This document shows positions 17,519 to 29,644 of a stretch of 55,855 bases of DNA, piece by piece. The notes below the pieces were generated by a model. It made no database searches, had not been told where the DNA came from, and saw nothing but the letters and a program-made list of their open reading frames with translations. A program made the position numbers and the translations under genes. The stretch is from positions 1-55,855 of the forward strand of contig CAMQTJ010000007.1 in assembly GCA_947037125.1 (NCBI GenBank), in the 5' to 3' direction. Every line of letters begins with the position of its first letter. The stretch's first letter is position 1. The DNA comes from an uncultured Holdemania sp. (GTDB taxonomy: Bacteria; Bacillota_I; Bacilli_A; Erysipelotrichales; Erysipelotrichaceae).

Positions 17519-18535
17519 TTATTTATCATTAAATAACGAATTCTTATAATTCATATAAAAAAATGGATCTAATTTATCTTCATAATCAAGTATGAAATCT
17601 TTTAAATCATCTTTATCTTTAAGTAAAAAAGATGGTGTTATACTATCATAATAATCTTGCTCAGTATAGACAATTTTTTCATGATCGCCCCACACATAAG
17701 CAGCTCTTAATCGATAAGATTTAGCATACATATTTTCAAAATCAATAACTGCAGACTGAGGAGCTAAAAACAAATTTTCAGTTAATCCCTCATGTATAAA
17801 CGTATCGTAATCATTAACGTTATAATTATTATATATTCCAATAATTTCAAATTCTATAATCCCATCAAAATTATCGGGATAATAATTACACAATGAATCA
17901 TAAACAACTTCACAACCAACACATTCTACATCACCATAAAATTCAATCATATCACCTAGTTTTAAATTATTTAACCTTGCATATTCACTAGTTACAAGAA
18001 TTACTCTTTCGCCATCTTTAATTTCTTGATTATTATAAAAACGACCTTCAACTATTTCATATAAGCCATTTTCAAACTCTATCATATTATCCTTATTACT
18101 TGTTGCAATATATCCATGGATTAAATCATATTCACTTAAAGTTATTGAACCATCCAAGTTGTCTGGCACTACAATTTTTTTATCAATAGGAAATATTCTT
18201 AGAAAATTTAATTTATTTGAAGCTAAAACTCGTTCATCATTTTGCATTTGATCAAATAAATCCATTAGTTCATCATTATAAAAATCCGGATAATTTCTAG
18301 TGTCTGTTACTGCAATTTGTATTAATGGAATATGTCTTACAAGTAAATCATATATTCTATCTTGTTCTATTTTAAAATTAGTTATAAATTCTTGTTCTTC
18401 TTTATGTTGAGATTCTATAATAAGGTTTATTTTGTTGTTTTTTTTACTATTTTTAACAACTGTAAAATCTAAAAATAGAATGATTGCAAATAATAATATA
18501 ATTAATAAATATTTATATTGCATAATTTTTTTCAT
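17519..18535 (-). CDS. Membrane-anchored MacB-type extracellular module without permease domain
   Basis: The 338-residue protein has one N-terminal membrane helix (about 8-27), then only an extracellular part. That part shows the pattern of the MacB periplasmic core of FtsX-type ABC permeases: YEIVEGRFYNNQEI, VILVTSEYARLNNLKLGDMIEF, and FEIIGIYNNY, followed by a LFLAPQSAVI segment. The three C-terminal FtsX helices are absent, and the protein ends shortly after LKDFILDYEDKLDPFFYMNY. The frame is intact and the SD (GAGGGGA) is good, so this seems to be a stable product. It is a paralogue of the broken gene upstream. It could act as a decoy, accessory sensor or immunity protein for the neighbouring ABC transporters; function is unknown. 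Confidence 0.7.
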   Translation of the reverse strand: MKKIMQYKYLLIILLFAIILFLDFTVVKNSKKNNKINLIIESQHKEEQEFITNFKIEQDRIYDLLVRHIPLIQIAVTDTRNYPDFYNDELMDLFDQMQNDERVLASNKLNFLRIFPIDKKIVVPDNLDGSITLSEYDLIHGYIATSNKDNMIEFENGLYEIVEGRFYNNQEIKDGERVILVTSEYARLNNLKLGDMIEFYGDVECVGCEVVYDSLCNYYPDNFDGIIEFEIIGIYNNYNVNDYDTFIHEGLTENLFLAPQSAVIDFENMYAKSYRLRAAYVWGDHEKIVYTEQDYYDSITPSFLLKDKDDLKDFILDYEDKLDPFFYMNYKNSLFNDK

Positions 18536-18584
18536 GTCATAATCCCCTCTTTTATCTTTTAATATAAATTATTGCAATAAAAAA

Positions 18585-19519
18585 TCAATAGTAATTAACT
18601 AATTCATTTTTAAAACTCATTGAATAATAAGGTTTTAATAAATCTTCATAATCTAAAATAAATTGCTCTAAGTCTTTACGATCTTTTAGTTGAATATTAA
18701 TTGCAAACGTTCTATATACAATTTCTCTTTTCAAAAACGTTTCTCCACCACTCATAAATTTTTGGTGATTATCCACTAAAGGAATTATAGAAGTAACAGG
18801 TGCTAAAAGAGTATTTTCATTATATTGTGCAGGTGAATTACTGTAACTATATTGATAAAAATCATCATAAACTTCATAATCTTTAGTAAAATTATTATTG
18901 AATATACCAATTATTTCATATTCTATAAAACCATCATAATCTCCACTAGAAACAAGAAATTGGATTTTATCACCAATTTGTTTACTATTTATTTTTGCGA
19001 ATTCACTTGTCACTAAAATAACCTTTGAACCATTATTTACTTCATCCATCGTATAAAATCTACCTTCAACAATATCATATGTACCATCAATTATATTAAT
19101 CATTTTATCACAATCATTTGCTATTAAGAGCATTTCATTAATATTATATTCATATGGCATTTGTGACATTAAAAGATCATCTGGTAAATAGACATTTTCA
19201 TTTATTGGGTAAAGAGAATGACTGTCTAAGTGGTTGTATGTTAATACTCTATCATCTTTTTTAATTTGATCAAAAGCATTAATAATTTCATCACTTATAT
19301 CAATGTCATCATACATTGTCATTGGATTTGATTTCGAGCAAAATCAATTGTCACATAACTATTAACCGTAAATTCTTTTTCTATTTCAACTATTTCATTT
19401 TCTTGATCTTCTATTTTTTGTTGTTGTTCCTTATTAATATCTACTTTAATAAGTAAAAATAATGCAAAAAAGACCATTAAACTTAATGATATATATTTTA
19501 ATAACTTCATACTTTTCAT
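18585..19519 (-). pseudogene. Second MacB-type extracellular module, frameshifted
   Basis: Two frames together make one protein of about 309 residues related to the 338-residue neighbour. The first (from ATG at 19519) gives a membrane helix and a linker, ending at 19319; the second (to 18585) resumes with MTMYDDIDISDEIINAFDQI and continues as YDIVEGRFYTMDEVNNG and KVILVTSEFAKINSKQIGD. The break is at a tandem copy of the 5-mer GATTT (plus strand 19325-19334). Removing one copy joins the frames as ARN-PMTMYDD, matching TRN-YPDFYND of the intact paralogue. It may be a recent null mutation, a phase-variable state, or two coupled genes, since the frames overlap by ATGA. It is the first gene after the LytTR-type operator. 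Confidence 0.75.
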
Positions 19520-19602
19520 AACTTATTCCCCTTTTTTCTTGTTGAATTGATTGAAAATTATTTTTAATATTAGAAATTTTAATTGAAAATTATTCCTAAT
19601 TT

Positions 19603-19672: not shown

Positions 19673-20569
19673 TTATATATTCTTTATCTTACTTTTTTTA
19701 GTTACTATCGATATCATTTCAACACTTGTAATACTTTCATTATAACCGTCAATACATTTTTTAGCTTCAATTATCTTACCGTCATCAATACAACTATTTA
19801 TATAGCTTAATACATGCCTCATATCGTGTTTTAGACTTATAATATTATCATTTAATTGATAAACTTGCTTAATACTTTGTAGCTTATTATTTTTAAGTAA
19901 TAAACTTATTTCATCATCACTTATTTTTTTATTAATGCTTAATAAGTTAAAGAATGTCGTAATCATTACAATAGTAAAAATAGATAAAGCTGTAAAGCCT
20001 ATAACATAAATATCATTACTAAAACTATTAGTATAAATTAACTCTTTAAAAGGCAAATAGATAATTATGATAAAAACAGTGAAAATAAACATCGTTAAAA
20101 TTTGATTCTCACTAATCACAGCTTGATATTTTTTTCTTATACTTAAAATAGTATATAACGTAACCATTAAAACTAATTCAATAAATATCTTAGTTGGATA
20201 AATCAGATTAGATACTAAAAGCTTATCTACACTAATGTTATCAAATAATATTATACTAAAAAGCAACATAACTAAACCATCCATTATTAAAGTTAAAACA
20301 AATGTAAAAAAACAAATGAATAATTTTTCTATCAATAAATTTTTAGTAAACTTAAATACAAAAATTAGGTTTATCAATAATATTAAATAAGGCATTAAAA
20401 TTTGATTACTAAAAAATAACTGTGAACAAATTATTAAGAAAAAACTGATAATTGAATACAGTAAAAAAGCTTTTTTATTATACAAAGATTTCATCGTTAA
20501 GTATTTTGAAAAAAATAATAAACTAATAATTACTTCAAACAATGAAATTATTAAATCAAAAGTATTCAT
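19673..20569 (-). CDS. Sensor kinase-like protein HK1: membrane sensor and phospho-His helix, no ATPase domain
   Basis: The 298-residue protein has about six membrane helices (residues 5-210) and a dimerisation helix with the GHKL/AgrC-type phospho-acceptor motif LKHDMRH (His248). It stops at residue 298, a few residues past the helix pair, so the whole HATPase domain (N-box, G-boxes) is absent. No ATPase remnant is found in the 150 nt downstream; the operator starts 3 nt after the stop. The membrane and DHp parts align with HK2 (21333-22661) without a large gap. It is preceded by the response regulator, 9 nt away, with an AGGAT SD. It could accept phosphate in trans from HK2, act as a receptor subunit, or simply be a truncated gene. 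Confidence 0.8.
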   Translation of the reverse strand: MNTFDLIISLFEVIISLLFFSKYLTMKSLYNKKAFLLYSIISFFLIICSQLFFSNQILMPYLILLINLIFVFKFTKNLLIEKLFICFFTFVLTLIMDGLVMLLFSIILFDNISVDKLLVSNLIYPTKIFIELVLMVTLYTILSIRKKYQAVISENQILTMFIFTVFIIIIYLPFKELIYTNSFSNDIYVIGFTALSIFTIVMITTFFNLLSINKKISDDEISLLLKNNKLQSIKQVYQLNDNIISLKHDMRHVLSYINSCIDDGKIIEAKKCIDGYNESITSVEMISIVTKKSKIKNI

Positions 20570-20578
20570 AATTTAATC

Positions 20579-21265
20579 CTATAATATAAAATTACAATAA
20601 GCTTCTTTTGTATCTTTAAGCTTTCTTGCACTAATATATAATTCTTTCCCATTTTTTAAAATTAGTGAATCTTCATTAACACTTAAATTTTTAATCCATA
20701 ACATATTTACAACTACTCCACGATATACTTCGTAAAAATCATTTTCCATAAATTGATCAATGACCTTTTTAATACTACAACGCTGTTCAATAACTATTTT
20801 ATTAGTATGTATGGAAATATAATTATGCTTTGATTCTATATAAAGTATATCTTTAAATAAAATAAATTGATCATTAACTTGATAGAATCGATTGTTTTTT
20901 TTCATTACTAACATAAATTTTTTCATGGCATCACTAAAATCTTCTTTAAATTTACTTTTACGTAAAAAGAAAAAGGTATCTACTTTATAAGTATCAAAAA
21001 CTAAATCCTCACGATTTGAACAAAATATTAACTTAGGACTATTTTGTTTATTTTCAATAGCCAATGCTATATCAATTCCATTAATATTAGGCATACTGAT
21101 ATCTAAAAAATATAAGTCAAACTCAGTATTGATTAGCAACTCAACATTACTTCCATCATATGTAACTATATCAAAATCAATATTATTATCATATTGATTC
21201 AATTGATCACATAACTTTTTTGTATCATTTAAACAATCATCAACTATTGCAACTTTATAAACCAT
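20579..21265 (-). CDS. LytTR family response regulator
   Basis: The 228-residue protein has a CheY-like receiver (residues 1-120; acidic pair Asp9-Asp10, phospho-acceptor Asp55 in YFLDISMPN, Lys near 103) and a LytTR DNA-binding domain (about 128-226, with DILYIESKHNYISIHT and EVYRGVVVNMLWIKNL). It belongs with AgrA/VirR-type regulators that control peptide-related functions. The SD (GGGAGAATAG) is good. It lies between the two kinase-like genes HK2 and HK1. Its likely targets are the paired CTTAA repeats at 19638-19670 and 48867-48899. Confidence 0.92.
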   Translation of the reverse strand: MVYKVAIVDDCLNDTKKLCDQLNQYDNNIDFDIVTYDGSNVELLINTEFDLYFLDISMPNINGIDIALAIENKQNSPKLIFCSNREDLVFDTYKVDTFFFLRKSKFKEDFSDAMKKFMLVMKKNNRFYQVNDQFILFKDILYIESKHNYISIHTNKIVIEQRCSIKKVIDQFMENDFYEVYRGVVVNMLWIKNLSVNEDSLILKNGKELYISARKLKDTKEAYCNFIL

Positions 21266-21332
21266 ATACTATTCTCCCTGCAATTATATATGCATTAATT
21301 TTACTATATTTATTGAATCCTTTAAAACTCTA

Positions 21333-22661
21333 TTAAATGATATTATTTTTAGCTGTTAAGATATCATCAATAATGCTTATATCTTTTTCACTTTTAAATA
21401 ATAGTTTGCAAACAAATAAATAATTACTACTTTCAAATTGAATTTTGCTATTTGTATGGTTCATTATATCCACCGTGTTATTAATACCATATCCATGACC
21501 CTTTGATAGTTTAGATGTTTTTATATCATTATTTAAAATTATACTTTCTACTTCAATACTATTTTCTATACGTACTATAATATACTCATTTTTATCTTTA
21601 ATATTAATTCGTATTTTATTATCACCTTTACAGTTTTCATAAGCATTTTCAAATATATTACTTAATACAATCATAAGATCATTGTCACCTAAATTAAAAT
21701 TACATAATGAACTAATCGTAAATACACAATCAATATTAAGTCGATCACATGATTCTTGCAATTGATTTATTGCATGATTTAAAACATTATTATTAGTTAT
21801 TTTACTTGATACTACACTTTTAATACTAAGATCATAATTACTGATAATATTTTGTGCTTTTTCATAGTTATTATTATCTAACATGTCATCAATTGTTTTT
21901 AATGTATTATTCATTTCATTTTTAATCATTATAATTTTATCATTCATTTCCTCAATCTTACCATCTTGTTTTAACTTACTTTCTAAAACCACAAGCTTTA
22001 CTTCAGAATCAGTTATTTGTTTATTTAATTTTAATAAGCTAATAAAAGCAATATATAGACCTATTAATAATAAGAAAAGAAATAGCATACCTAATAAAAA
22101 CACCATTTCATTATGATTTGAACCATGTATTAATAAACCATAAGTTGTTTGAATAAATGAAACAATAATAATCAAAAGAAATAGCACAACGATTTGCGAT
22201 TTAATAATTATGTTATTATATTTTTTTCTTCCTTTACAAATTAGTGCATACGCAAAAAATAACACTATATTTACTATAATTGTAAATAACCAAAAATATT
22301 GTGAACTATAAAGATTAGGTGAAATTATATCACCATAAAATACTAAACTTGTTCCAATTATTAAAAAGTTCGCAACTAAACTAATTATATTATATGATAA
22401 AAAGTTTACAAATATTTTTTCTATTAAGTCATTTTCAGAATATAATAAAGTAAATATAAAACATGGCAACATAAATACATAAATATATATTCCTTCAAAA
22501 CCAATAATTAAATTACTTAAACTCATTACTACAGTACTAATTGCTACAAACAAAAAGAAAATCTTTATGTTATATTTTTTATTCATTGTAAGATAATTAG
22601 CTAAAAACCAATAGATTATCATGTTTTGTAATATGTTAATACCAATATCAAATAGGTTCAT
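21333..22661 (-). CDS. GHKL sensor kinase HK2 with ATPase domain but Asn in place of the phospho-His
   Basis: The 442-residue protein has about six membrane helices (residues 5-210), a coiled DHp helix pair (215-285) and a C-terminal GHKL ATPase (about 295-425) with N-box NIFENAYEN (335-343), IENSIE, and G-box GHGYGI (388-393). Where GHKL kinases have H-D, this protein reads IKNEMNN: Asn248 and Glu249. HK1 has LKHDMRH at the same residue numbers. I chose the ATG at 22661, which lies 8 nt after AGGAGG; an in-frame TTG at 22667 would add two residues. HK2 may be unable to autophosphorylate but able to phosphorylate HK1 in a heterodimer. It has its own promoter upstream. Confidence 0.88.
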   Translation of the reverse strand: MNLFDIGINILQNMIIYWFLANYLTMNKKYNIKIFFLFVAISTVVMSLSNLIIGFEGIYIYVFMLPCFIFTLLYSENDLIEKIFVNFLSYNIISLVANFLIIGTSLVFYGDIISPNLYSSQYFWLFTIIVNIVLFFAYALICKGRKKYNNIIIKSQIVVLFLLIIIVSFIQTTYGLLIHGSNHNEMVFLLGMLFLFLLLIGLYIAFISLLKLNKQITDSEVKLVVLESKLKQDGKIEEMNDKIIMIKNEMNNTLKTIDDMLDNNNYEKAQNIISNYDLSIKSVVSSKITNNNVLNHAINQLQESCDRLNIDCVFTISSLCNFNLGDNDLMIVLSNIFENAYENCKGDNKIRINIKDKNEYIIVRIENSIEVESIILNNDIKTSKLSKGHGYGINNTVDIMNHTNSKIQFESSNYLFVCKLLFKSEKDISIIDDILTAKNNII

Positions 22662-22697: not shown

Positions 22698-22742
22698 AAT
22701 TATCCCTTGATAATTATATCACACTAGATAATTATTAATCAA
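22698..22742 (-). promoter_or_regulatory. Promoter of the HK2-RR-HK1 operon with overlapping dyad
   Basis: On the minus strand, TTGATT (22737-22742) and TATAAT (22713-22718) are 18 bp apart. A perfect inverted repeat AATTATC-CCTT-GATAATT (22698-22715) covers the end of the -10 and the start site, a place where a repressor could act. Confidence 0.7.
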
Positions 22743-22780: not shown

Positions 22781-23422
22781 CTATAATTTAATAATTCTAT
22801 CACAATAGTTCGCTACATCAATGTCATGTGTTACAATTATAACACTAACGCCTAATTTATTAATTGATTTAAATAAATTCATTAAATCAATACTAGATTT
22901 TTCATCTAAGGCACCTGTAGGTTCATCAGCTAAAACAACTTTACTATTAGTTATTAAAGCTCTTGCCACTGCTACACGTTGTTTTTCACCACCTGATAAA
23001 TATTCAATTTTATGTTTTATTAGATAATTAATACCTAAGTTATTTAATAGTTCAATTGCTCTTTTTTTACCATCTTTTTTATTAAAATATTTATACTCTA
23101 AAGGTAATAAAATATTATCCATAACACTGTACTCATTAATAAGGGCAAAATTTTGAAAAATAAATGAAACATTATGCCTTCTAAATTTGAGTAATTCCTT
23201 TTCACTATATTGTGAAACATCACAAGAATCAAATAAATATTGACCACTACTAAGTGATTCAAGGCCTCCAATAATATTTAATAATGTCGTTTTACCACAA
23301 CCACTTTTCCCCATTATTGCAACCATTTCACCATCATTAATTTTAAATGATAAATCATCAAACAAAACTCTACTATTATTTTCCTTACCAAAAATCTTAT
23401 TTATTTTTTTCATTTCAATCAT
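22781..23422 (-). CDS. ABC transporter ATPase, MacB/LolD-type (peptide or lipoprotein class)
   Basis: The 213-residue ATPase has Walker A (GKSGCGKTT, about 38-46), the Q-loop in FIFQNFALI, signature LSGGEKQRVA, Walker B (VVLADEPTGALD) and the H-loop (VIIVTHD). It belongs to the MacB/LolD/FtsE group that pairs with FtsX-type permeases. Its SD (GGAGG) lies within the end of the permease gene upstream. It is the third gene of an operon with two half-size permeases (24665-25576 and 23425-24672). Confidence 0.95.
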   Translation of the reverse strand: MIEMKKINKIFGKENNSRVLFDDLSFKINDGEMVAIMGKSGCGKTTLLNIIGGLESLSSGQYLFDSCDVSQYSEKELLKFRRHNVSFIFQNFALINEYSVMDNILLPLEYKYFNKKDGKKRAIELLNNLGINYLIKHKIEYLSGGEKQRVAVARALITNSKVVLADEPTGALDEKSSIDLMNLFKSINKLGVSVIIVTHDIDVANYCDRIIKL

Positions 23423-23424
23423 TA

Positions 23425-24672
23425 CTAAATCCTCCTGATAAAATGCACAATATTCAACTGTTTTAACTTAGTCCATACGCAAATAAATATAATAATATAA
23501 AGCAGCAAATCATTAAATATCATTAATGATATAATCAAAAATAATAATCTAATAAAATTAGCATCAAGTATCTTACCATATAATAGGAAAATAATTAATC
23601 CTAAAACATTTGATACACTGACAATAACAACTAAATCACTTGCAATTAAATAAACGATGTCTTTATAGCTTGCACCCATTGCTAAATGTATTGCATAGCG
23701 ATTAAAGTTAATTGCTAAACGTTTCATATATGATACCACTAAAATAATTAAACTAAATACTTGGATAAATAAATAACCAAATACTGCATACTTAATGATG
23801 CTTTGATAGGTATTATAGTTATATTCACTTTCTTTATTTAAATTGTGTAACGAGTACATATTTTCATATTCTGATTCTTGTATGATATCATTAATTTCAT
23901 TTGTAACATCGTCATCTTCGACAATTATACCTGGCATTAAAACAGAATAATTGATCATTTCTATTCTATCAAACAAAGCATTAGTACTATCAATAATTGT
24001 AGTAGGTATTAAAATATACTGATCAAGTAGTTGATAATCACCTGATGAAAAATTATAACTTTTACTATTTTTTTGTAAAAAACCAACGATTTCAAATTCA
24101 CTATTTTCTTCAAATATAAAATAATTACCAATAATTTTATCACTTATATTAAAATATTGTTTATATTCATACCCTAGTAAAATAGGTATTGAACTTCCTT
24201 TTTTATAATGAAATTGAATAAATTTATTCAATAACCCACTATCTAATTTTAAATTATTAGTATTAATATAATTTTCATTTACTGTTATGGATTTATACAA
24301 ATATAAATCATTACCTAATTCACTAAATATAAAATCAGTAAGTTTTGAATCAAATGAAGATGTGAAACTTTGATTAGCTTCTATCACAACATTATATTCA
24401 TTTAGTTTACTATATAAATCGATTACATCTAACTTATGTTCACTATCATACATTTCATCAAAAACATCACTTGTTCCAATATCAGATATTCTTATAACAT
24501 TTTTATTACCATAGTTTTTTAAAAAATCATTTCTTGCACTTGTTTGAATATCATAAAAAATCAATAATAGCCCCATAATTACAACTGATAATGTCAGTTG
24601 AATAATAAAAATAACAATTAAATATGGTGTATTAGTTAAATTTATTTTTATTTCTTTAAGTATTTTATTCAT
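23425..24672 (-). CDS. FtsX/MacB-type ABC permease (subunit 2)
   Basis: The 415-residue protein has an N-terminal helix (about 14-38), a large extracellular core (about 40-285), and three C-terminal FtsX helices (about 293-313, 345-365, 375-400). It overlaps the upstream permease by eight bases and ends 2 nt before the ATPase start, so the three genes form one operon. The permeases differ from each other, so the transporter is probably a heterodimer. Such MacB-type machines do not move substrate through the membrane but pull on extracellular peptides or lipoproteins. The substrate is unknown; bacteriocin resistance or peptide signalling fits the neighbours. Confidence 0.88.
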   Translation of the reverse strand: MNKILKEIKINLTNTPYLIVIFIIQLTLSVVIMGLLLIFYDIQTSARNDFLKNYGNKNVIRISDIGTSDVFDEMYDSEHKLDVIDLYSKLNEYNVVIEANQSFTSSFDSKLTDFIFSELGNDLYLYKSITVNENYINTNNLKLDSGLLNKFIQFHYKKGSSIPILLGYEYKQYFNISDKIIGNYFIFEENSEFEIVGFLQKNSKSYNFSSGDYQLLDQYILIPTTIIDSTNALFDRIEMINYSVLMPGIIVEDDDVTNEINDIIQESEYENMYSLHNLNKESEYNYNTYQSIIKYAVFGYLFIQVFSLIILVVSYMKRLAINFNRYAIHLAMGASYKDIVYLIASDLVVIVSVSNVLGLIIFLLYGKILDANFIRLLFLIISLMIFNDLLLYIIIFICVWTKLKQLNIVHFIRRI

Positions 24673-25576
24673 TTATTTTATACCTCAACTTTTTATAAAT
24701 ATTACTAGTTGGTAAATAAATTGAAATCATTGATATAATTATTACAAGCAATATGTACGACATTTCAATTAATTGTTTGGTAAAGATAAATGTTAAAACA
24801 TAAGAAAATAATATTAAAAGTAAATATTCAATTAATATATCCATAAATATTTTCATTTTACCACAACCAAAAATAATTTTGATTTTAATAACTTCTCTTT
24901 TCATTTCTACATAATATGAAGATATACTTAAAATAGTAATCAGAAAAAAGCATACAATTATCCAAACTATTACATCAACGCCTGTAAAATCACTGGCAAA
25001 TATAATCGATGAATCAGAAATTTTATTCAAATTAGGATTATTATTTAAGTACTCAAATAAATCATTGTTTTCATATGAATCAATTCCATATTCTTTATTT
25101 GAATATACGTCACTTTGTTGTATGCTAAAATATACTTTATTTTCTAATACTTGATCATCTTTACTAATTACCCCAATTACTTTATATTCAATTTGATTAA
25201 ATATATAAATATCATTTATTTTTTTATCAACTTCAAAACCAACTACACAAACATTATTACCATTATCGCTTTGACTCAAAAAACGTCCATTAGCTAATTT
25301 TGGTTCTACAACATTACCAAAAATCCCAACAAAGCGATGATTATCATCAATTTTTAAATGAATTGAATAATCATTATAATTATTTTCGATATATTTTAAC
25401 TCTGTCTGTGTTTTATCATCTACTGATATATTTAAATAAGTATCACTTTGATAATTGTTTGAAATTATTGATAAGTAATTTATATTTTGCTTATAAATAT
25501 TATTAAATGTTAAGAAACTAAAAATAATTGTCATAGTAAATATAATTACGATATTGTTTAAATTTATTTTTTTCAT
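24665..25576 (-). CDS. FtsX/MacB-type ABC permease (subunit 1)
   Basis: The 303-residue protein has an N-terminal helix (about 8-26), a small extracellular core (about 30-195; VGIFGNVVEPKLANGRFLSQ, then YKVIGVISKDDQV) and three to four C-terminal helices. It lacks the larger core insert seen in subunit 2. The SD is GGGGAG, 4 nt before the ATG. It is the first gene of the ABC operon. The 52-nt element shared with the second ABC operon lies 66 nt upstream (25643-25694). Confidence 0.87.
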   Translation of the reverse strand: MKKINLNNIVIIFTMTIIFSFLTFNNIYKQNINYLSIISNNYQSDTYLNISVDDKTQTELKYIENNYNDYSIHLKIDDNHRFVGIFGNVVEPKLANGRFLSQSDNGNNVCVVGFEVDKKINDIYIFNQIEYKVIGVISKDDQVLENKVYFSIQQSDVYSNKEYGIDSYENNDLFEYLNNNPNLNKISDSSIIFASDFTGVDVIVWIIVCFFLITILSISSYYVEMKREVIKIKIIFGCGKMKIFMDILIEYLLLILFSYVLTFIFTKQLIEMSYILLVIIISMISIYLPTSNIYKKLRYKINE

Positions 25577-28254: not shown

Positions 28255-29526
28255 CTAGTTAGATCTTGTTAGGATTGTTTTAGGATTATACTTTAGGATA
28301 ATTATCGTAGGAATTATAATTGATAATGAAACAATGCTTAAACAAATTAGATAAATTTTGATAATAGTAATTAAACTAATATCAACAACATACACTTCTT
28401 TAACATCATTTAAAGTGACTTTAGTAAAATAATTATTATTACGATCATTCCAATATTGTTCACCATCACTATCTATTTGATTATCATCTACATTATATAC
28501 TGTTAATTGAAAATCAAGAATATTTTGACTAATTTTATTGGCAATTAAAGTTCCAGTAATTGATGACATTGAAAAAATAATAATTGCTATAATAAAATAT
28601 TCCATAAATAATTGGCAAATTATCTTTAATTTACTTACTCCTATTGATAGCAATACACCAATTTCATACTCTCTACTTTTTATAGAAAGTGTAGCAACTA
28701 AAGTAATTATAACAATTGCATTAATAAAGATTATTATTAAGATTATCTTTGAAAATACTGATAGCATCTTTAAAGGTATTACAAGTTTATCATAATCATC
28801 CATATTAGCATCAAAAATAAATAGCTCATTATCAAATTTATCACTATAGTCCTCAATAAAACTTGGTATGTCCTCAATATCATTCATTAATATAACAACT
28901 GATGTAAAGCTCAATTCTTCATTGATTTCTTCTATTAATCCTTCAGGATGTGTTTTTTGATATTCTTTATATTTAATTTGAGCCATTTGATTATATTTAT
29001 TTACAATAGTTGTAGTAGGCATTAAAATTACATTTTCATTTGAACGATTCCCTGATATCCATTCATAGTATAAAATATTATTTTTATCAGTTTCTTTTTT
29101 ATTATCATAGATTCCAATAATTTTTACATCAAACTGACACATATCAAAACTCATCTCGCCATATTGATTAAAACCTTCTTGTAAGTCCCTAGTCTTTAGT
29201 GTGTCAATAGTAATAATATCCCCTACTTTAAATCCGTTTAAATCAGCTAAAGTATCTGTTATTAAACAAACATTATTTGCATTATCTATATCATTTTGTG
29301 TATACATATTTCCATCTATCATCACAAAGTTTTCATCAGCAAAATCGATAGAATTTGTATCAAGCCCTCCTTTAATCAATATATTAGGGGCAATGGGTTC
29401 ACCCATTTCATTGTAGTTACTGTTATCTCCATCATTATCCATTGGAACACTATTAAATGTTGAAGCGTACCAATTTTGATTATAGATAACATCCATCGCT
29501 TTAATACAATTATATCTTTTTCGCAA
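28255..29526 (-). pseudogene. 5'-truncated FtsX/MacB-type permease (headless)
   Basis: The frame gives about 420 residues: most of an extracellular MacB-type core (NMYTQNDIDNANNVCLITDTLADLNGFKVGD written in pieces: NMYTQND, VCLITDTLADLNGFKVGD, FDVKIIGIYDN, VILMPTTTIV) and three C-terminal FtsX helices (about 255-280, 300-325, 380-405). The N-terminal membrane helix and the start of the core are missing. There is no ATG at the 5' end; the frame opens from a TTG within the remnant of a response regulator gene. A deletion has evidently fused two genes. No ATPase gene accompanies it. Whether any product is made is doubtful. Confidence 0.75.
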
Positions 29527-29552
29527 TCGTCCAAAATAGCAATATTTACCAT
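29499..29552 (-). pseudogene. N-terminal remnant of a second LytTR-type response regulator
   Basis: From ATG at 29552 the frame reads MVNIAILDDCEKDIIVLK, which matches the receiver start of the regulator at 20579-21265 (MVYKVAIVDDC). After about 18 codons the similarity ends and the sequence continues, in another frame, as permease. This marks the upstream side of the deletion junction. Confidence 0.65.
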
Positions 29553-29644
29553 AATATATACACCTTGCATTCTAATTTACCAAATTAATTAACCCCTATC
29601 TATATATTTTAGTATAGATTGCTATAATTTAATATAGCGATATT

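Follow-up and report, generated by a model that had tools for sequence, protein, structure and literature searches.

Genomic organization of the HK2-regulator-HK1 locus

The window considered here is the whole stretch of DNA that was analysed, 55,855 nt of one contig from an uncultured Holdemania sp. of the family Erysipelotrichaceae, whose genome is available as a draft of 2.49 Mb (135 contigs, 95.7% complete). ORF analysis places three genes head to tail on the minus strand, in the order HK2, LytTR response regulator and HK1 (Table 1). This order agrees with an earlier note on the same DNA, which had described two half-kinases flanking one LytTR regulator. The gap from the regulator stop to the HK1 start is 9 bp, and a Shine-Dalgarno-like (ribosome-binding-like) sequence precedes each of the three genes. 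A promoter-like site before HK2 weakly suggests that HK2, the regulator and HK1 would be carried on one transcript; sites of this kind are found in the AT-rich region around HK2 only at chance density. The regulator retains the receiver residues D9, D10, D55 and K103, and all 13 of its 13 family-conserved positions are kept.

In agr loci, agrB and agrD adjoin the regulator and the kinase. With respect to agrB the present locus departs from this arrangement, as the gene was not found in the window and its four copies in the genome are all located on other contigs. The position of HK1 after the regulator reproduces the regulator-kinase order of complete loci, and HK2 is found at the place that agrB occupies there.

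Table 1. Features of the HK2-regulator-HK1 locus and its surroundings
Feature	Position	Strand	Description
ABC transporter upstream of HK2	22781..25576	-	ATPase and two permease ORFs
ABC ATPase	22781-23422	-	TIGR03608 match
ABC permease	24665-25576	-	MacB_PCD and DUF1430 matches
Promoter-like site before HK2	22713..22742	-	TTGATT-18-TATAAT, TGn
HK2 alternative start	22667	-	In-frame TTG
HK2	22661-21333	-	442 aa; ATG at 22661; AgrC-like (HPK10) membrane histidine kinase
LytTR response regulator	21265-20579	-	228 aa; Response_reg and LytTR matches
HK1	20569-19673	-	298 aa; AgrC-like membrane receptor and DHp, without ATPase domain
Direct repeats	19547..19600 (starts 19547, 19579)		Two 22-nt repeats, period 32 bp, between HK1 and next gene; candidate operator
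Tandem lone MacB_PCD-type proteins downstream of HK1	17519..19519	-
Frameshifted tandem gene	18585-19519	-	ORFs of 66 and 245 aa
Open tandem paralogue	17519-18535	-
Regulator-like N-terminus, by eye	29500-29560
N-truncated MacB/FtsX permease	28255-29526

Neighbouring genes and a candidate operator

The locus is surrounded by transporter-type genes. The ATPase of the upstream ABC transporter scores 237 bits against TIGR03608, the model for lactococcin-972-type bacteriocin exporters, just under its cut-off of 254.85, while one of the permeases gives a MacB_PCD match and a weak DUF1430 match, both below the Pfam gathering scores. Downstream of HK1, the first of the tandem MacB_PCD-type genes is frameshifted with respect to its tandem paralogue and is divided into two ORFs that overlap at ATGA; the paralogue stays open. 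We infer that what the regulator controls is probably peptide transport or immunity.

Elsewhere in the window, near 29.5 kb, a short segment (MVNIAILDDCEKDIIVLKR) resembles, by eye and with no scored hit, the beginning of a response regulator of the LytTR type. Read in the same manner, this regulator-like start runs into an N-truncated MacB/FtsX permease and has the appearance of a deletion fusion.

The two direct repeats located between HK1 and the next gene are a candidate operator for the regulator. LytTR sites usually have a period of about 21 bp, and because the repeats differ from this in their spacing they can be regarded as a candidate only. Further copies with fewer than 2 mismatches were not found elsewhere in the genome.

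HK1 retains the phosphoacceptor histidine and lacks the ATPase

The H-box of HK1, KHDMRH, carries His248, and residues 248 and 252 are the sole histidines of the protein. The tested positions were those with at least 75% conservation in the family whose residue also occurs in the complete paralogue described below; among those in the HK1 H-box only a K>R change was seen. Both kinases were also compared with 32 homologous kinases, each sequence being scored against a profile of the others, and in HK1 this gave z-scores of +0.5 for the H-box core and -1.4 for the rest of the DHp. In the structure model, which like that of HK2 is of moderate confidence (four sequences lie behind the HK1 model and five behind the HK2 model), the DHp hairpin is predicted to be complete (185-262/266-293), after which the protein stops; the tail at 282-298 is of low confidence.

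HK1 terminates at residue 298, which corresponds to the DHp-ATPase boundary, and it had no match in Pfam or NCBIfam. An ATPase domain hidden by a frameshift was considered and ruled out: the 153 bp between HK1 and the next ORF contain no ATPase remnant above shuffled controls, and thus the domain is absent rather than frameshifted. Of the features expected of an AgrC-like HPK10 kinase, HK1 therefore has the phospho-His and is without the ATPase domain.

HK2 retains the ATPase and lacks the phosphoacceptor histidine

HK2 has Asn248 at the phospho-His position, where all 32 of the homologues compared have His. A histidine shifted to another site in the DHp was likewise ruled out, there being none between residues 184 and 295. 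The change at 248 is accompanied by D249E, K251N and H252N, so that all four tested positions of the H-box are altered and Asn248 is no single-base oddity. Within the ATPase domain, however, 13 of 15 tested conserved residues are kept and two are changed, a contrast with the H-box that is significant by Fisher's test (p=0.004). The z-scores follow the same division, at -3.1 for the H-box core against -0.2 for the N-box, 0.0 for the G-box and -0.5 for the ATPase domain as a whole, with +1.5 for the membrane part and +1.3 for the rest of the DHp.

The GHKL ATPase of HK2 matches HATPase_c_5 in Pfam (E 4.8e-12) and retains N335, N339, N367, H389, G390 and G392 of the N and G boxes. One departure is S405, which replaces a Gly that is invariant in the 32 homologues; the aligned residue of AgrC 6e52 is likewise not Gly. 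The HK2 model (moderate confidence, mean pLDDT 70.8) contains seven long helices, and together with the hydrophobic stretches of the sequence these identify a polytopic membrane domain, the seventh helix being predicted to continue into the DHp. For the CA part of this model, the match to 4bxi, the ATP-binding domain of AgrC, has a TMt of 0.74. HK2 thus has the HPK10-type ATPase with its N and G boxes and is without the phospho-His. These results bear out the earlier description of both proteins, namely that HK1 has His248 and ends at residue 298 before any ATPase, and that HK2 combines Asn248 with a GHKL ATPase.

Paralogues, relatives and phylogeny

Identity between HK1 and HK2 is only 27-28%, and neither is clearly the closest relative of the other. 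A kinase encoded elsewhere in the same genome (contig 4), an intact paralogue, shares 40% identity with HK2; its locus consists of an AgrB-like gene, a LytTR regulator 45% identical to that of the window, and a kinase with both His and ATPase. In the tree, HK1, HK2 and the contig-4 paralogue cluster together (support 96/86), and next to them stand kinases that are associated with agrB in one other member of the family. The two kinases of the locus have longer branches (1.09 and 0.90) than the intact paralogue (0.60).

The genome as a whole holds about 14 AgrC-type kinases in 2.5 Mb, a rich set of what are likely peptide-sensing systems. At the complete paralogous locus the AgrB-like ORF (L056 8039-8374) seems N-terminally short. 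Counted from its first ATG it has 111 aa, but the match to the family begins at profile position 36 and stays open further upstream, to 156 aa. The His is kept in 13 of the 14 HPK10-type ATPase-bearing kinases found in this genome, and the lone His-less kinase and the lone ATPase-less receptor found there belong to the same operon.

An orthologous HK1-HK2 pair was not found in 60 relatives, 273 genomes of the family, 316 of the order or 395 sampled genomes of the class, these being overlapping sets that were each searched at one fixed E-value limit. No relatives turned up when named genome contigs were first scanned; a C-terminal query recovered three, all of them distant, with Breznakia pachnodae among them. 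The pair is known from one draft genome. The earlier note had proposed asking whether the two losses always occur together in related genomes, and the relatives searched offered no second pair for this comparison. It had also proposed that complete homologues of HK1 or HK2 in close strains would point to independent decay. All of the close homologues are indeed complete; the complete kinases are paralogues and distant homologues, and in the relatives searched none was found as an orthologue of the pair.

A possible split histidine kinase and its alternatives

The domain content described above suggests that HK2 and HK1 may together make up one AgrC-type histidine kinase whose functions are divided between two proteins, both of which have a polytopic membrane receptor part as well as a DHp hairpin. 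If the two formed a heterodimer, HK2 would supply the ATPase that phosphorylates His248 of its partner in trans. From HK1 the phosphate would then pass to Asp55 of the LytTR regulator, whose gene lies between theirs. The phosphorylated regulator would in turn switch the nearby peptide or bacteriocin-type ABC transporter genes. Homodimers of either protein would be incapable of autophosphorylation. A 2009 paper on asymmetric AgrC dimers reportedly found trans-phosphorylation in AgrC itself. Histidine kinase autophosphorylation has been described as primarily in trans (PMC5956149).

Under such a division of labour the catalytic partner could dispense with its own His as long as it had an ATPase and a DHp able to dimerise, while the acceptor would need an H-box but no ATPase. 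The losses in HK1 and HK2 fit this prediction, and are less well predicted by plain decay. As far as can be judged from sequence, the phospho-His and the catalytic domain lie on two proteins that share one regulator, which is the arrangement that defines a split kinase. Tentatively, and without regarding it as probable, we favour the reading that HK2 and HK1 form a working split kinase.

It is also quite possible, though to us more doubtful, that the locus is a decaying duplicated quorum-sensing cassette in which neither HK1 nor HK2 is a working kinase. In that case a deletion would have taken the HK1 ATPase and joined HK1 to the downstream transporter-type genes, with the HK2 H-box drifting later, once signalling had failed. 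The HK1 ATPase could have gone by deletion in the same way as at the regulator-permease fusion, a remnant that lies in the same window as the frameshifted neighbour; with adjacent genes broken, the neighbourhood evidently tolerates decay. The existence of a complete paralogue in the genome and of complete homologues in relatives is in keeping with this history, as is the lack of conservation of the pair in the other species searched. The long branches of HK1 and HK2 and the Gly change at S405 count against a working split kinase. Decay should not, however, strike every tested H-box residue of HK2 yet spare 13 of 15 in its ATPase, and it is at odds with an untouched regulator, with the retention of the H-box in HK1, and with reading frames of 442 and 298 codons that stay open in AT-rich DNA. 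Since a decaying locus would likewise put both losses together, their sharing of an operon cannot by itself separate function from decay; the pattern within each protein does so better. If decay is the correct explanation, the locus is a well-defined snapshot of how a quorum-sensing cassette breaks down.

An improbable alternative is that HK2 is a His-less modulator of the pseudokinase type, like DivL or RetS, and HK1 a phosphotransfer, phosphatase or decoy receptor, the phosphate coming from another kinase such as the complete contig-4 paralogue through mixed dimers or cross-talk. The identities to the contig-4 kinase and regulator make cross-dimers plausible, and regulation by pseudokinases is established, DivL being an example (PMC4211667). 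In HK2, nevertheless, no core residue of the N and G boxes is lost, whereas DivL is devoid of kinase activity, possibly through poor ATP binding (PMC4211667), and a free-standing role would leave the loss of the ATPase from HK1 only unexplained. It is very improbable that the 3' end of HK1 was created by an error of assembly or sequencing. Misjoins can arise in a draft assembly in which many kinase genes are related, but no other place in the genome matches across the HK1 junction, and the second-best match to the junction region (92 bp, 76% identical) lies inside the coding sequence of the paralogue. The loss in HK2 spans four separate codons rather than one error.

With respect to a split kinase formed by HK2 and HK1, the trans-complementation put forward in the earlier note stands in part: the anatomy is as it proposed and the losses fit it better than random decay, but the broken neighbours keep decay a serious rival. 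The wider proposal is of a naturally occurring quorum-sensing receptor of the AgrC type, a heterodimer whose members are not kinases on their own and in which two receptors are obligately integrated through one LytTR regulator; it seems to us unlikely, if well worth considering. The signalling gate of the earlier note, open only when both receptors meet, would go beyond the anatomy if it demanded both ligands: a split pair needs its two proteins, but not necessarily the ligand of each. Should the split-kinase reading be true, the locus would supply a natural obligate heterodimer for the study of trans-phosphorylation and signal integration, and nature would hold asymmetric kinase dimers of a type made elsewhere artificially by mutation.

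Comparison with known systems

AgrC/AgrA and other HPK10-LytTR systems share with the locus a polytopic receptor, DHp, GHKL ATPase and LytTR regulator. AgrC, however, is one complete homodimeric kinase encoded with agrBD, whereas the HK1/HK2 locus is without agrB and its kinase functions are divided. DivL resembles HK2 in that its histidine kinase fold has another residue in place of the phospho-His. It senses a phosphorylated regulator and has no kinase activity, possibly through poor ATP binding (PMC4211667), while the ATP motifs of HK2 are retained.

Closer parallels to a divided kinase are found among CheA proteins. In Synechocystis, two-hybrid and mutant evidence supports Hik36/Hik43 as a split CheA, with the HPt half and the catalytic half on separate genes and one regulator, as in HK1/HK2 (PMC7656254). 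That pair differs from ours in being of the CheA class, with unlinked genes and no duplication of a membrane receptor. In Rhodobacter sphaeroides the phospho-His and the kinase domain are likewise on different proteins, CheA3 and CheA4, neither of which autophosphorylates alone although a mixture of the two does (PMC3591291). Unlike HK1 and HK2, these are cytoplasmic chemotaxis kinases, joined to the receptor cluster by P5 domains (PMC3591291). Their His is on a separate P1 domain rather than on the DHp dimer helix as in HK1, and HK1 and HK2 would both be membrane receptors. A working HK1-HK2 pair would thus extend to membrane peptide receptors a principle known from cytoplasmic CheA; the split-kinase principle itself is already established by CheA3/CheA4, and what would possibly be new is its occurrence in a membrane receptor of the AgrC type.
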